DNA of 64,000 nucleotides from Brachypterus glaber (lineage: Eukaryota > Arthropoda > Insecta > Coleoptera > Kateretidae). Of this stretch, positions 3,289-63,742 are shown piece after piece. The stretch lies in the NCBI GenBank assembly GCA_958510825.1, contig OY294048.1:13471589-13535588 (forward strand), written 5' to 3'. Position 1 is the first letter of the stretch. Each line of letters begins with the position of its first letter. The position numbers and the translations under genes were made by a program. Below the pieces are notes generated by a model. It was not told where the DNA came from, made no database searches, and saw nothing but the letters and a program-made list of their open reading frames with translations.

Positions 3289-4392
3289 TTAAAGTAATTC
3301 TATTCTACATTCTAATTTTATTTTTTTTAAGTTTAAAAAAAAAATTAAAAAAAAAAAAATTTTTTTCATTTGGACAAAATATAAATTGAAAAAATGTGGT
3401 CCAAATATAATTGACGCGTATTCTAATACAGATCTAACTAAGGAATAATATACTTTCAAGATTGTGTTGACAGAAAATTCTGAACAATTTCTTAATTTAA
3501 AGCCAAGCATTTTTTAAGCTTTGGATGTTATGATATTAATGTGGGTATTAAAGTTTGGACTAATCTAAATTAACTCTTTTTTAATTTTAACAGACTAAGA
3601 TTGAATTATCTATCGTATAGGCAAAATTAATTGACTTATTACCTCTAAAATAGGACAAAACCTTACATTTACTAACATTAAGTTATAAATTATTGGTTTT
3701 ACACCATTTTATCAAACTTTTTAAGTCACTCTAGAGAAGAAGAGCGTCATGAAGAAATGTTATATGTTTGAAAATTTTTAAGTCGTCAGCAAAAAGTACG
3801 ACATCACTATACTTAAAGATAGAAAAAATATCATTAATAATTAGAAACAATGTAGGAGCACAATGAGAGCCTTGTGTTGCACCTGATGTCACCAACAACT
3901 TTTAAACAAATTTACAAAATGTTTACTGAGGCCACATTCTATTAATTTAAAGAAAAGAATATTCGGGTCAACATTGTCAAAGGCTTTATAAAAGTCATTA
4001 TAAATTGAGTCAACCTGCCCAAACTTCTTTTCCATAACTTCCAATATCATGGATTCATATACTAAGAGATTAGAAACTGTGGAGCGATTCCTACAGAAGC
4101 CATGTTGCTGGCTAATAAAAAGTTCTTTATAGGACCAATAATATAATCTGCAACAACACTATCAAACAGTTTTGGTATACTAGATTGGATACAAACACTT
4201 CTATAATTGGAAACGTTATCCTTAGCGCCGGATTTAAAGACGGGCATTATGAAACTGTGCTTCCAACCAGAAGGAAATTCTCCTAGTTTTAAAAAACTAA
4301 AACTAAACTTAAAGGATGACTTAATGTAAAAATGCATTTTTTTAAAAAGTAGTTTGGGATACCATCAGGACCGGAAGATAAAGTGTTTTTAA
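3289..4392 (-). pseudogene. Decayed non-LTR retrotransposon reverse transcriptase (LINE)
   Basis: Read on the reverse strand, broken frames spell successive landmarks of a non-LTR reverse transcriptase. GPDGIPN lies near 4360. A long open piece at 4062-4337 carries the GEFPSGWK segment and a following FKSGAKDNVSNYR segment. After a frameshift come HGFCRNRST (about 4100) and a YKAFDNVD-like region (about 3980). The catalytic FADD box (LFADDLKIF) is near 3800, and the thumb region with SLVRSVLEY is at 3400-3470. The order is that of the Jockey/CR1-type clades. At least two frameshifts and stop codons separate the pieces, and the endonuclease half is missing, so this is a dead 5'-truncated copy. 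The exact clade cannot be assigned by eye. Confidence 0.85.
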
Positions 4393-33360: not shown

Positions 33361-33982
33361 TGTCAACCGGATCACCTGCGTACCCAAAATTTGCGTTGAT
33401 AGATTTTTATTGATCCAGGTGTCAAAATGTTCGTCTGGACAAGAGCTTTCAAAAAATGGTGGCGTATTGAAAAATTAAATTCAAATGAGATGACATGGTT
33501 TGATTTTCGAAAATTTGTCCGCCATCTTAACGAAATTTTGTCTAAATCGGTTGATTTTCGAAAATTGGGACAGCCATATTGGATCCGCCATCTTGAATTT
33601 TTCAAATCCGACCTCAGATTCGAAATCAGCGACCCCAAAATCCCCTTAGTACAAATTTTTGCTTAGATTCCTCTAATTTTATTTTTTTGTCCGTCATATT
33701 GGATCCGCCATTTTTTTTGGTAATGTCAAATGTTGGTATAGTATCAGTGATCCCTGTACTTATTTTAAACGTAATTAGAATGTATATTTTAAGGATTAAA
33801 GCAATTTCATTAAACTTTTTCTCAAATTTAACGTGGGATACCGGCTTATAGCCGCCATATTTGATCCGCCATATAGAATTTTTCAATACGCCACCATTTT
33901 TTTAAAAGCTCTTGTCCAGACAAACATTTTTACACCTCGATCATAAAAATCCATCAACCCAAATTTTGGGTTCCGGTTGACA
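33361..33982. mobile_element. 622-bp TIR element with GGATCCGCC interior
   Basis: TGTCAACCGG (33361) and CCGGTTGACA (to 33982) are inverted ends. The arms stay homologous for about 110 bases (CCAAAATTT...GTCTGGACAAGAGCTTT). The interior contains degenerate units with ATATTGGATCCGCCAT, linking it to the satellite-like array at 62385-62965. The ORFs on both strands (33372-33886) are translations of the repeat. Confidence 0.8.
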
Positions 33983-34661: not shown

Positions 34662-34673
34662 TATAAATTGACT

Positions 34674-35151
34674 AAGGACAGAAATTTTTAATTTTAAACA
34701 AAATTATAAAAATATTAAGAGGGCCAGCAGCCCGAAACTGTCAGTCTACCAATATCACTCTGTACGATGATTAGAAAATAGATTGATGGAATAATAAATT
34801 AATATTTTTATAATTTTGTTTAAAATTAAAAATTTCTGTCCTTACTAATTTTACGTCTAACCACCCGTTAGTGGTACTATGTGCTTGAGACACACAAGTC
34901 TTCAACTTGCTACCATTCAAAGTCTCCAGATAAGGAGAGGTATGAGTAGTTGTCTACATCTAGAAATAGATGGCGCACAAGTCTACATCAATCTAATGGC
35001 TATATTCCTTTTGCGAGTAAAGTCTAAAAACGTTTTCTTAATCAGCGTGCAGAGTTGACTCTTGGTACTGAAGAGGGCCAGCAGCCCGAAACTGTCAGTC
35101 TACCAATATCACTCTGTACGATGATTAGAAAATAGATTGATGGAATAATAA
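34674..35151 (+). mobile_element. Penelope-like/retrozyme-like element with hammerhead ribozyme
   Basis: This 478-bp element is bounded by a perfect 12-bp target duplication, TATAAATTGACT (34662-34673 and 35152-35163). It has two copies of an ~80-bp repeat (34718-34797 and 35072-35151) spaced 354 bp apart. Copy 2 forms the 3' part of a complete hammerhead ribozyme. In copy 1 the ribozyme's 5' half is replaced by a 44-base segment (34674-34717), the exact reverse complement of 34800-34843. There is no ORF, so it depends on another element's proteins. Head-to-tail units each carrying a type I hammerhead with short helix III are known from Penelope-like elements and animal retrozymes. A 5' inverted segment and a long target duplication also fit Penelope-like insertions. 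Assignment to the group is inference; the repeats, target duplication and ribozyme fold are read directly. Confidence 0.85.
35046..35120 (+). ncRNA. Type I hammerhead self-cleaving ribozyme
   Basis: All invariant core residues are present in order. CTGAAGA (35068-35074) fits CUGANGA. Helix II is GGGC/GCCC (35075-35078, 35084-35087) with loop CAGCA. GAAA follows (35088-35091). A short helix III has A-C-T paired with A-G-T (35091-35093, 35097-35099) around a GTC loop. The cleavage-site base is C35100, so self-cutting would fall between 35100 and 35101. Inner helix I is TTGGTA (35062-35067) with TACCAA (35101-35106). After an internal loop, outer helix I pairs 35046-35055 with 35111-35120 over ten pairs, one of them G-U. 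The bulge in helix I and the loop of helix II are where natural hammerheads make their loop-loop contact. No core position is mutated, so activity is plausible but unproven. Confidence 0.9.
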
Positions 35152-35163
35152 TATAAATTGACT

Positions 35164-36773
35164 CCTAAATTGGTGAAATGTCTGGCTGGTTGCAATTTAG
35201 GCTGCGAAAGAGCAGTAAAAGACACATTAAGCTACTCTTGTTACTTGGGGTATTACCCAAGAACTTAGTCTATATTACCATTTAGTAATGGTAATATAGA
35301 CTAAGTTCTAAGCTCTATAAAAAAATACTACGTATCTAATAGGTACACCTATAGGAAAAATAACGGATACCCATTAATCGTTTGAAACTAAATATAGTGG
35401 AATATATCTAACAAAAATAACAAATTAAAGTTCTTTTGTGTTTTCAGCTCGATGACATTCAATCATTAAGACCTAGGGGACCACGATTTCATTCAATTCA
35501 AAGCCTTCTCCAACAAAGGAACACCAATATGGCGGTCGGCGACCAATGACGTGTACGCTGACAACAATAGCTAGGGGACGAACCACTTCGGCGGCAATGT
35601 TTATTCTGCGGCCCTCGAATCCACCTAAACACTATTCTGCCTTTGTACAGGAAAACCCCGTACCATCGATATCAAAAATATCTCGGAAACATTTTTTGAA
35701 AAAAGAAAATAGTGATTCCTCTTAGACAAATCACTCGATTTTTGGCGGTATTAGTAAAGCTGACAAAATAAATTTCATACCAATTAATAAAGATCCAACA
35801 AGCTACAAGTTTGCTTAAACAAACGTTTAAATGGTATAAATCAGTCGCAGCGGGTTCTTTGTAAGAGACGGATGTGGCCGCTTAGGCGTATTTATTCCTG
35901 CATCAGCCTGCTGTCGTAGATATGCACAGGACTTGATTTATTTTATTTTATGTTGTTTCTTGAAAGTATTACTTTAATAACTTTAAGTGAATCGTGAATA
36001 TTTATGTTTTTTTATTGTGTGATGTTAAACTTTAACGTGGGACTGTTAAACATGTAAAGTCAATTTTTTTATAAATTTTAAAGATATTTTTTTTATAAGT
36101 TGGCGTCTGCGCAAACATCACTACAGAGTGAGACGGTTTTGCGTAGGCCAAAAATTATATTAGATCGAGCTGGCAACCTATCCTATGGAAAATGCCATTA
36201 TTGGAATTAGAATTGGAATTGGAAATGGTATAAATTGTATTTTAATAACTTTAATATTAACAACAAAAAACGATTGATTTGTCTCAGGTGAATCGCCCTG
36301 TATATGTGCATACACATGTGTATAATAAATAAAATATTTTTTTGTTTTAATTTTAATTGGTTTTCAGTATTATTATTTTCCTCCTAAAAATCGAAAATCA
36401 ACAAGTTTTGTTTCAGAATTTCTTCGTTTCTAGAAAAAAAAAATAGTAAAAAATACATTAAAAAACACTTTTAAATGAACACATTAAAAAGTTTTTGTTT
36501 TGTGGCAGCAGTATTTTAAAAGACAGATATCATGTGATACGGGGTTCTGTGATTCAAGTGCACTGCCAAGGAGGCAGTATTGTCCAGTTATCACCGCTTA
36601 AAATAACAGAACGGGGCGTAGCGCTGTCTTTGTTGAGTGTGTTGTTGAAAAGAGAAAGAAAAGTGAATTAAATGTATAACCTTTTACCAAACACACTTCC
36701 AGAATACCGAATTTGTACGTAAGGAACAAATTTATTTTCATTAAGGTTTAGTAATAAAGTAATAAATAATTAA
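35164..36773. other. Gene-free stretch with a promoter- or exon-like patch
   Basis: At 35448 TTTTGTGTTTTCAG resembles a splice acceptor, and 35449-35740 is clearly richer in GC and CpG. This patch has an ATATGGCGGTC (YY1-like) site, GACCAATGACG (CCAAT and CRE-like sites) and a 53-codon + frame from about 35547. I recognise no protein. It may be a promoter with first exon of an unknown transcript. The remainder to 36773 shows nothing. Confidence 0.3.
35260..35309. repeat. 23-bp-arm perfect hairpin
   Basis: AGAACTTAGTCTATATTACC (from 35260) through CATT pairs exactly with the inverse ending AAGTTCT at 35309, across a four-base TAGT loop. It lies about 100 bp downstream of the ribozyme element. 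Confidence 0.9.
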
Positions 36774-40540: not shown

Positions 40541-54950
<14,410 letters not shown>

Positions 54951-62965: not shown

Positions 62966-62974
62966 TAGGATGAA

Positions 62975-63742
62975 GTAATAGAAGAATAACTATTCTTACG
63001 GATAGCAAAGCTTCCATACAAGCAATCAAGTCTTTCAAAATTACTTCAAAACTAGTTTTGGAATGTCACCAATCCCTGGAGGAAGCGGCAGTTTCTAATA
63101 CTGTTACACTCTCATGGGTAAAGGGGCATAATGGAAATGTAGGCAATGAAGAAGCTGATAGATTGGCACGAGCAGGCTCAGGCTCTGTACCTATTGGTCC
63201 AGAGCCCATAATCCCTGTATCTGTCGCTTTTAAAACAGCTCTCATTAATCAAGAAACTCACATAAAACACACCCGTAATTGGATTACGAGAAACGATTGT
63301 AAACATGCAAGAGCAGCCCTTCCCACTCCGTGTGAAAAGACAGCACGCTTTTGTATGCAACTAAAAAGGGATAACCTAAGACAGTTTGCAAGCATCGTAA
63401 CAGGTCACTGCAAACTAAATAAGCATCTTAACATCATGGGGAAGCCAGTCGACCCCATCTGTAGAGGATGCTACATGGAAGAGGAAACAATGGAACATGT
63501 GTTATGTCACTGTCCAGCGTTAGCCTTAATAAGAGGGTCCATGCTAGACGAGTACTGGCTCGACATGGCCGGTATAAGCAGCATCACTCCCAGACATCTT
63601 CTTAGATATATTCAAAGAATTGGATGGCTGAGAGGTTAAATTAAATGCTGCGACCAAAGGGAGGTAGTACAATGGGCCCAGCTAAGTGGCCTAAGTGCGT
63701 GTAGATAGCTACCCTCCACCCTAATAACCATAACCATAACCA
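62975..63742 (+). pseudogene. 5'-truncated LINE with RNase H domain
   Basis: The insertion has a 9-bp target duplication, TAGGATGAA (62966-62974 and 63743-63751), and ends in a CCATAACCATAACCATA tail. The frame is open from the truncation point (about 62974) to TAA at 63637-63639. It encodes the second half of an RNase H domain (ITILTDSKASIQAI, then VTLSWVKGHNGNVGNEEADR and LARAG) and a C-terminal segment with a cysteine/histidine cluster (CRGCYMEEETMEHVLCHC). This arrangement is found in non-LTR retrotransposons of the I/R1/Jockey-related groups whose ORF2 ends in RNase H. The reverse transcriptase is missing, so the copy is dead, but the frame is undamaged, pointing to recent insertion. Confidence 0.92.

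Follow-up and report, generated by a model that had tools for sequence, protein, structure and literature searches.

The question raised by this locus is whether a hammerhead ribozyme found upstream of a housekeeping gene serves that gene or belongs to something that inserted next to it. The complete type I hammerhead, with its outer helix I, occupies positions 35046-35120 on the plus strand of the window (the whole 64-kb stretch of DNA that was analysed), and the minimal motif occupies 35062-35106. It has the core expected of the class (CUGANGA, GAAA, U16.1, H17) and three helices, and is open at helix I. The first eight of the following features were identified by reading the sequence, and the cleavage site is predicted from hammerhead anatomy:

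35068-35074, plus strand: CUGAAGA core
within 35046-35120, plus strand: helix II, GGGC/GCCC, with the loop CAGCA
35088-35091, plus strand: GAAA core
within 35046-35120, plus strand: helix III, ACU/AGU, with a GUC triloop
35099, plus strand: U16.1
35100, plus strand: C17
within 35046-35120, plus strand: inner helix I, 6 pairs
within 35046-35120, plus strand: outer helix I, 10 pairs including one G-U, followed by a bulged U and 2 more pairs
35100/35101, plus strand: predicted cleavage site

The initial annotation had reported an intact type I hammerhead at 35046-35120 with all of these core positions and helices, and this description was confirmed. A descriptor requiring an exact core, at least three pairs in helix II, two in helix III and four in helix I, but not the outer helix I, detected one site in the whole window, namely this motif. 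In 2000 simulated 64-kb windows (first-order Markov, both strands), it detected two sites, a chance expectation of about 0.001 per 64 kb, or nine when helix I was allowed at least three pairs. The self-cleaving RNA motif is thus real; it is a type I hammerhead by sequence and structure, and its cleavage is predicted on that basis.

The annotation described the ribozyme but overlooked a truncated second copy 354 nt upstream, as well as the insertion that surrounds both. The ribozyme sits inside a 478-nt insertion, flanked on each side by a perfect 12-nt target-site duplication (TSD) and arranged as follows:

34662..34673, no strand: left TSD, TATAAATTGACT, whose last T is also counted in the left arm
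34673..34718, minus strand: inverted left arm, 46 nt, unit positions 98 to 53, with a long-type outer end
34717..35151, plus strand: direct right arm, 435 nt (1.23 laps), with a short-type outer end
34717..34752, plus strand: truncated hammerhead lacking the helix I 5′ strand and C3-G5, expected to be inactive
34747..35100, plus strand: 354-nt monomer between the two predicted cleavage sites
35152..35163, no strand: right TSD, TATAAATTGACT, a perfect direct repeat

The left arm is the exact reverse complement of 34799-34844, and the right arm is composed of unit positions 325 to 354, 1 to 354 and 1 to 51. Counted from the cleavage site, the insertion therefore ends at unit position 51 on the right and, inverted, at 98 on the left. 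An 81-nt part of the ribozyme region is repeated 354 nt upstream without a mismatch and, since the TSD is perfect and these repeats are identical, the insertion is, judged by its sequence, recent. The unit has a GC content of 0.36; no open reading frame of at least 75 aa lies within 34662-35163, and searches found neither a tRNA in the window nor a strict A or B box within the element.

We searched the 648-Mb genome (842 contigs) with the 33-nt ribozyme core and obtained 5793 matches with up to 3 mismatches, while the reversed core pattern gave none. The gene downstream of the insertion, on the same strand and about 5 kb away, encodes paraplegin; its best named relatives are from beetles (Anoplophora, 85% identity over 100%; Brassicogethes, 89% over 94%), and the first recognised exon piece lies within an open frame starting at 41444. 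The initial annotation had treated the location of the ribozyme, some 5 kb 5′ of a housekeeping gene, as notable, and a domesticated ribozyme that regulates paraplegin would fit a motif lying upstream on the same strand. However, the thousands of core matches genome-wide, together with the perfect TSD and the identical 81-nt repeats as signs of recent insertion, make such a role a negligible prospect. Given so many core matches and the recent, mobile nature of the insertion, its proximity to paraplegin looks incidental; the intact hammerhead of the annotation is supported by sequence and structure, and the significance that it gave to the position is not supported.

The same genomic count underlies the assignment of the element, which, as read from its sequence, is a 354-nt non-autonomous non-LTR retrozyme in a beetle. 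The type I hammerhead occurs once per tandem unit, within the range of about 150-450 bp, in many dispersed copies; tandem arrays with 354-nt spacing are present; the unit is non-coding with a GC content below 50%, and the TSD is larger than 4 bp. In the available portions of PMC7229834 and PMC7761336, metazoan non-LTR retrozymes likewise have a type I hammerhead, partial or multiple tandem copies, no open reading frame, TSDs longer than 4 bp and a structured monomer, to which the beetle unit adds an example of 354 nt and 36% GC. Unlike what we found described in those portions, the beetle retrozyme has head-to-head arms, two fixed ends and TSD bounds, and the word "inverted" does not occur in the main text of PMC7229834 in the part available. 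Among the part of the literature surveyed, judged by title or the start of the abstract, no report of a beetle retrozyme was found.

A covariance search, which the annotation had proposed as a check and whose failure it had counted as one half of a refutation, gave no Rfam match at the gathering score for the window hammerhead. When the stretch was searched alone, the only hammerhead family listed, below threshold, was RAGATH-1 (RF03152; 21.3 bits, E 0.08, gathering score 56.3), which the window motif resembles in its hammerhead core and short helix III, but to which it is not assigned because it falls below that score. Two other good candidate motifs, detected by the same descriptor in the viral contig L120, were missed likewise (RAGATH-1, 26.8 and 25.6 bits), which indicates that the Rfam cut-off is insensitive here. 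These two hammerhead-like motifs (L120:10567-10616 and L120:11214-11261) are 647 nt apart, and both sit shortly 5′ of an ATG in the common context TATGTCAAACTTAAAAATAC. A loose hammerhead pattern in viral contigs left two loci with three motifs that passed the helix tests among 120 listed stretches, the exact core had no match in these contigs, and a third pattern had one, apparently in coding sequence as judged by eye; a stricter pattern had no match in a collection of genome contigs.

We then considered how the ribozyme may fold. What counts against the motif is that the 75-mer, as a single strand, has a minimum free energy of -30.7 kcal/mol in a structure that pairs CUGA with UCAG and disrupts the core, whereas the hammerhead fold has -24.4 kcal/mol, with a helix III pair probability near 0. 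The helix III segment, ACUGUCAGU, is self-complementary except for one U-U, and a dimeric hammerhead (-61.3 kcal/mol) is 11.7 kcal/mol better than two core-open monomers (-49.6), about equal to two free monomers (-61.4) and worse than the free dimer minimum (-65.5). According to the accessible part of PMC7761336, amphibian and PLE-type (Penelope-like element) hammerheads have a weak helix III and act as dimers, and invertebrate retrozyme motifs cleave mostly as monomers. Folded as a circle, the 354-nt monomer reaches -93.3 kcal/mol (z -5.2), and none of 200 shuffles was equally low.

To describe the family, we used 92 of 100 listed places (the last 8 left out), all exact matches within the first 16.4 Mb of one contig, together with the window, giving 58 loci and 65 insertions; the sample was selected by an intact core and so says nothing on the frequency of ribozyme loss. 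By orientation, 36 insertions are head-to-head, 15 plus-only, 12 minus-only and 2 complex, with no tail-to-tail case; L129 and L173 each supply two near-identical insertions, probably by segmental duplication. About a third of the arms (32 of 99) are longer than one unit, the longest measuring 2015 nt, or 5.7 laps. With strict trimming and unit positions counted past the cleavage site, the outer ends of 105 arms fall mostly into two groups, a short one (median 53, 46 ends) and a long one (median 98, 40 ends). Both ends could be classed in 26 of the 36 head-to-head insertions, the other 10 having at least one end outside both classes, and all 26 combine a short with a long end (25/25 once the L129 duplicate is removed), compared to an average of 13.3 and a maximum of 22 when the ends were shuffled in 20000 trials. 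A short opposite arm of at least 10 nt is visible in 7 of the 27 single-arm insertions, three of which are short+long, two clearly short+short and two weakly short+short. Since some of these short-armed copies break it, the rule of one short and one long end is strong, not absolute.

TSDs of 9-14 nt are present at 23 of the 36 head-to-head insertions (one of them, at L164, being of low complexity), compared to an average of 0.28 TSDs of at least 9 nt, and a maximum of 2, in 50 rounds with mismatched left and right flanks. The 23 TSDs are 77% A+T, and the inner joints share an overlap of 1-6 nt in 22 of the 36. Head-to-head arms, a TSD and a tail at one end are the form of a Penelope-type insertion: as described in the portions available, PLEs have inverted pLTRs, TSDs and a tail on one pLTR (PMC3846280), and they resemble the beetle retrozyme in their partial tandem structure, in inverted repeats arranged head-to-head with TSDs around 10 nt long, in a tail that may be present at one end, in targets rich in A+T and in two reverse transcription (RT) start sites (PMC3846280; PMC11167929). 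The beetle retrozyme differs from the PLEs of these sources in having no open reading frame, a 354-nt unit and a tail of about 45 nt, where the PLE tail is 30-40 nt.

The RT and GIY-YIG open frame of an autonomous PLE is absent from the 354-nt unit and present at a separate locus of the same genome. Of 419 candidates from a GIY-YIG search, 150 were scored and 31 of these matched, and L192 carries a tandem PLE with a 3.0-kb period (99.4% identity over 801 nt) and a 716-residue open frame with RVT_1 and GIY-YIG. A 39-nt segment taken from around its hammerhead-like motif matched the genome 124 times; among 100 of these that were listed, neighbours within 3.5 kb comprise 22 head-to-head, 2 same-strand and no tail-to-tail pairs. 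In the 16 head-to-head pairs with the shortest spacing, with ends taken from BLAST, 15 combine an end at about +55 with one at about +88, counted from the cleavage-equivalent site (medians 55 and 88), the exception being the complex short+short pair L193, and end repeats of at least 10 nt occur in 13, compared to 0.02 in mismatched pairs. Hammerheads in PLEs are reportedly the subject of papers from 2014 and 2017. In the motif of this PLE (L192, L193-L208) the 5′ core is disturbed, in the copies inspected, by an extra or changed base (CUUGARGA and similar), which makes its activity doubtful. Comparison of the PLE with the retrozyme showed no clear sequence similarity, and a 9-mer near the short end common to both is a weak link, as 290 of 1000 shuffles gave one as long and 12 of 1000 also at the same offset.

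From these data, we infer transcription, cleavage, circularity and the mover, and consider it probable that the retrozyme is copied via a circular RNA and inserted by Penelope-type machinery. Tandem retrozyme copies would be transcribed, the hammerhead, singly or as a pair of motifs, would cut the RNA into 354-nt units, and a host ligase would close these into circles. A Penelope-like enzyme (RT and GIY-YIG) would then make nicks some 12 nt apart on the two strands of an AT-rich target. Reverse transcription would begin at two set positions, roughly 53 and 98 nt beyond the ligated cleavage site, as a rule with one of the two at either end of the break. Each cDNA would run around the circle for a partial lap or several laps, and the two cDNAs would be joined head-to-head, often over 1-6 shared nt.

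If a single RNA, probably a circle, served each insertion, its laps and arms should agree in sequence. Over six polymorphic sites, laps within an arm are concordant in 74 of 75 cases (31.9 expected) and the two arms in 54 of 54 (32.3 expected); the arms agree in all 17 informative insertions, whereas permuted pairs agree on average at 57% of sites and never at 100% in 5000 trials. Rare variants at unit position 43 (L191) and unit position 11 (L153, L165) occur in every lap of one arm and also in its partner arm, and the discordant arm, at L187, has one lap with another allele at unit position 186. One RNA source per insertion is thus well supported by the haplotypes, and, between a circle and a homogeneous linear multimer, the circle is the likely, though unproved, template. 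The tandem arrays present in the genome could supply linear multimeric transcripts, a template that would leave the rest of the model unchanged, and in vitro the anole PLE works with unprocessed RNA (PMC11167929). In addition, 35 of 120 partial-lap variants recur in at least two other insertions, but about half of these lie in the AT-rich stretch 52-99, where alignments may overrun the arm end. Given the concordance of the laps, and as animal retrozymes studied so far accumulate as circles in the available text of PMC7229834, we regard a linear template as unlikely. In the long arm of L176, unit positions 227 and 319 are changed in 3 of 6 laps; such half-lap changes in long arms hint at a later expansion by unequal exchange.

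Two other origins of the inverted arm were considered. Twin priming of an ordinary LINE also yields inverted 5′ parts, and LINE-like RT fragments are found within the window. However, in twin priming the inverted part begins at dispersed internal positions, whereas the outer ends of both retrozyme arms lie at fixed unit positions, and the resident PLE has the same insertion form; hence, movement by a LINE is highly improbable. Snap-back, or self-priming of a single cDNA, was our initial reading of the window insertion, the left arm of which can be read as a snap-back on 34719-34798. It would account for variants common to both arms, and self-priming has been proposed, on other grounds, for PLE inverted repeats in the accessible part of PMC3846280. 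Under snap-back, nevertheless, the outer end should depend on the point at which copying stops and not on a fixed site, and minus arms have outer ends in the same two classes as plus arms. The family end data set this reading back, and we consider it improbable.

Returning to the Penelope-type insertion of a circular RNA, a narrower proposal, on which our judgement is evenly balanced, is that the two ends divide the labour, with two RT sites on one circular RNA, short-site and long-site starts on opposite target strands, giving almost all insertions one end of each type, and the same rule for an autonomous PLE and a non-coding circular parasite. For the anole PLE, cleavage and extension of both strands are described, with two internal start sites that are used alike on either strand (PMC11167929). 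In the portions available, PLEs are named as strong or likely candidate movers of animal retrozymes (PMC7229834; PMC7761336), and animal retrozyme repeats show no motif that points to a mover (PMC7761336). The identity of the mover and the use of the circle as template can both be tested here, since thousands of core matches coexist in one genome with a PLE that leaves the same kind of scar. The analysis provides predicted RT start sites, a template haplotype readable from every insertion and a specific PLE protein for expression. The rule of one short and one long end bears on PLE integration and, if truly shared, would identify the mover of animal retrozymes. Head-to-head retrozyme insertions, their near-exclusive short+long pairing, a template haplotype common to the two arms and a co-resident PLE with this pattern were not found in the portions available of PMC7229834, PMC7761336 and PMC3846280, nor in PMC11167929, although other papers may have them.

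Other repeats were observed in the window. A perfect 23-bp inverted repeat with a 4-nt loop (35260-35309) lies 97 nt past the insertion and gave a mir-754 covariance match far under threshold. The LINE-like fragments, with RNase H and a weak RVT_1, are at 62974-63639 and 3889-4364, and nested inverted repeats spanning about 590 bp (33382-33971) resemble a foldback or MITE element.
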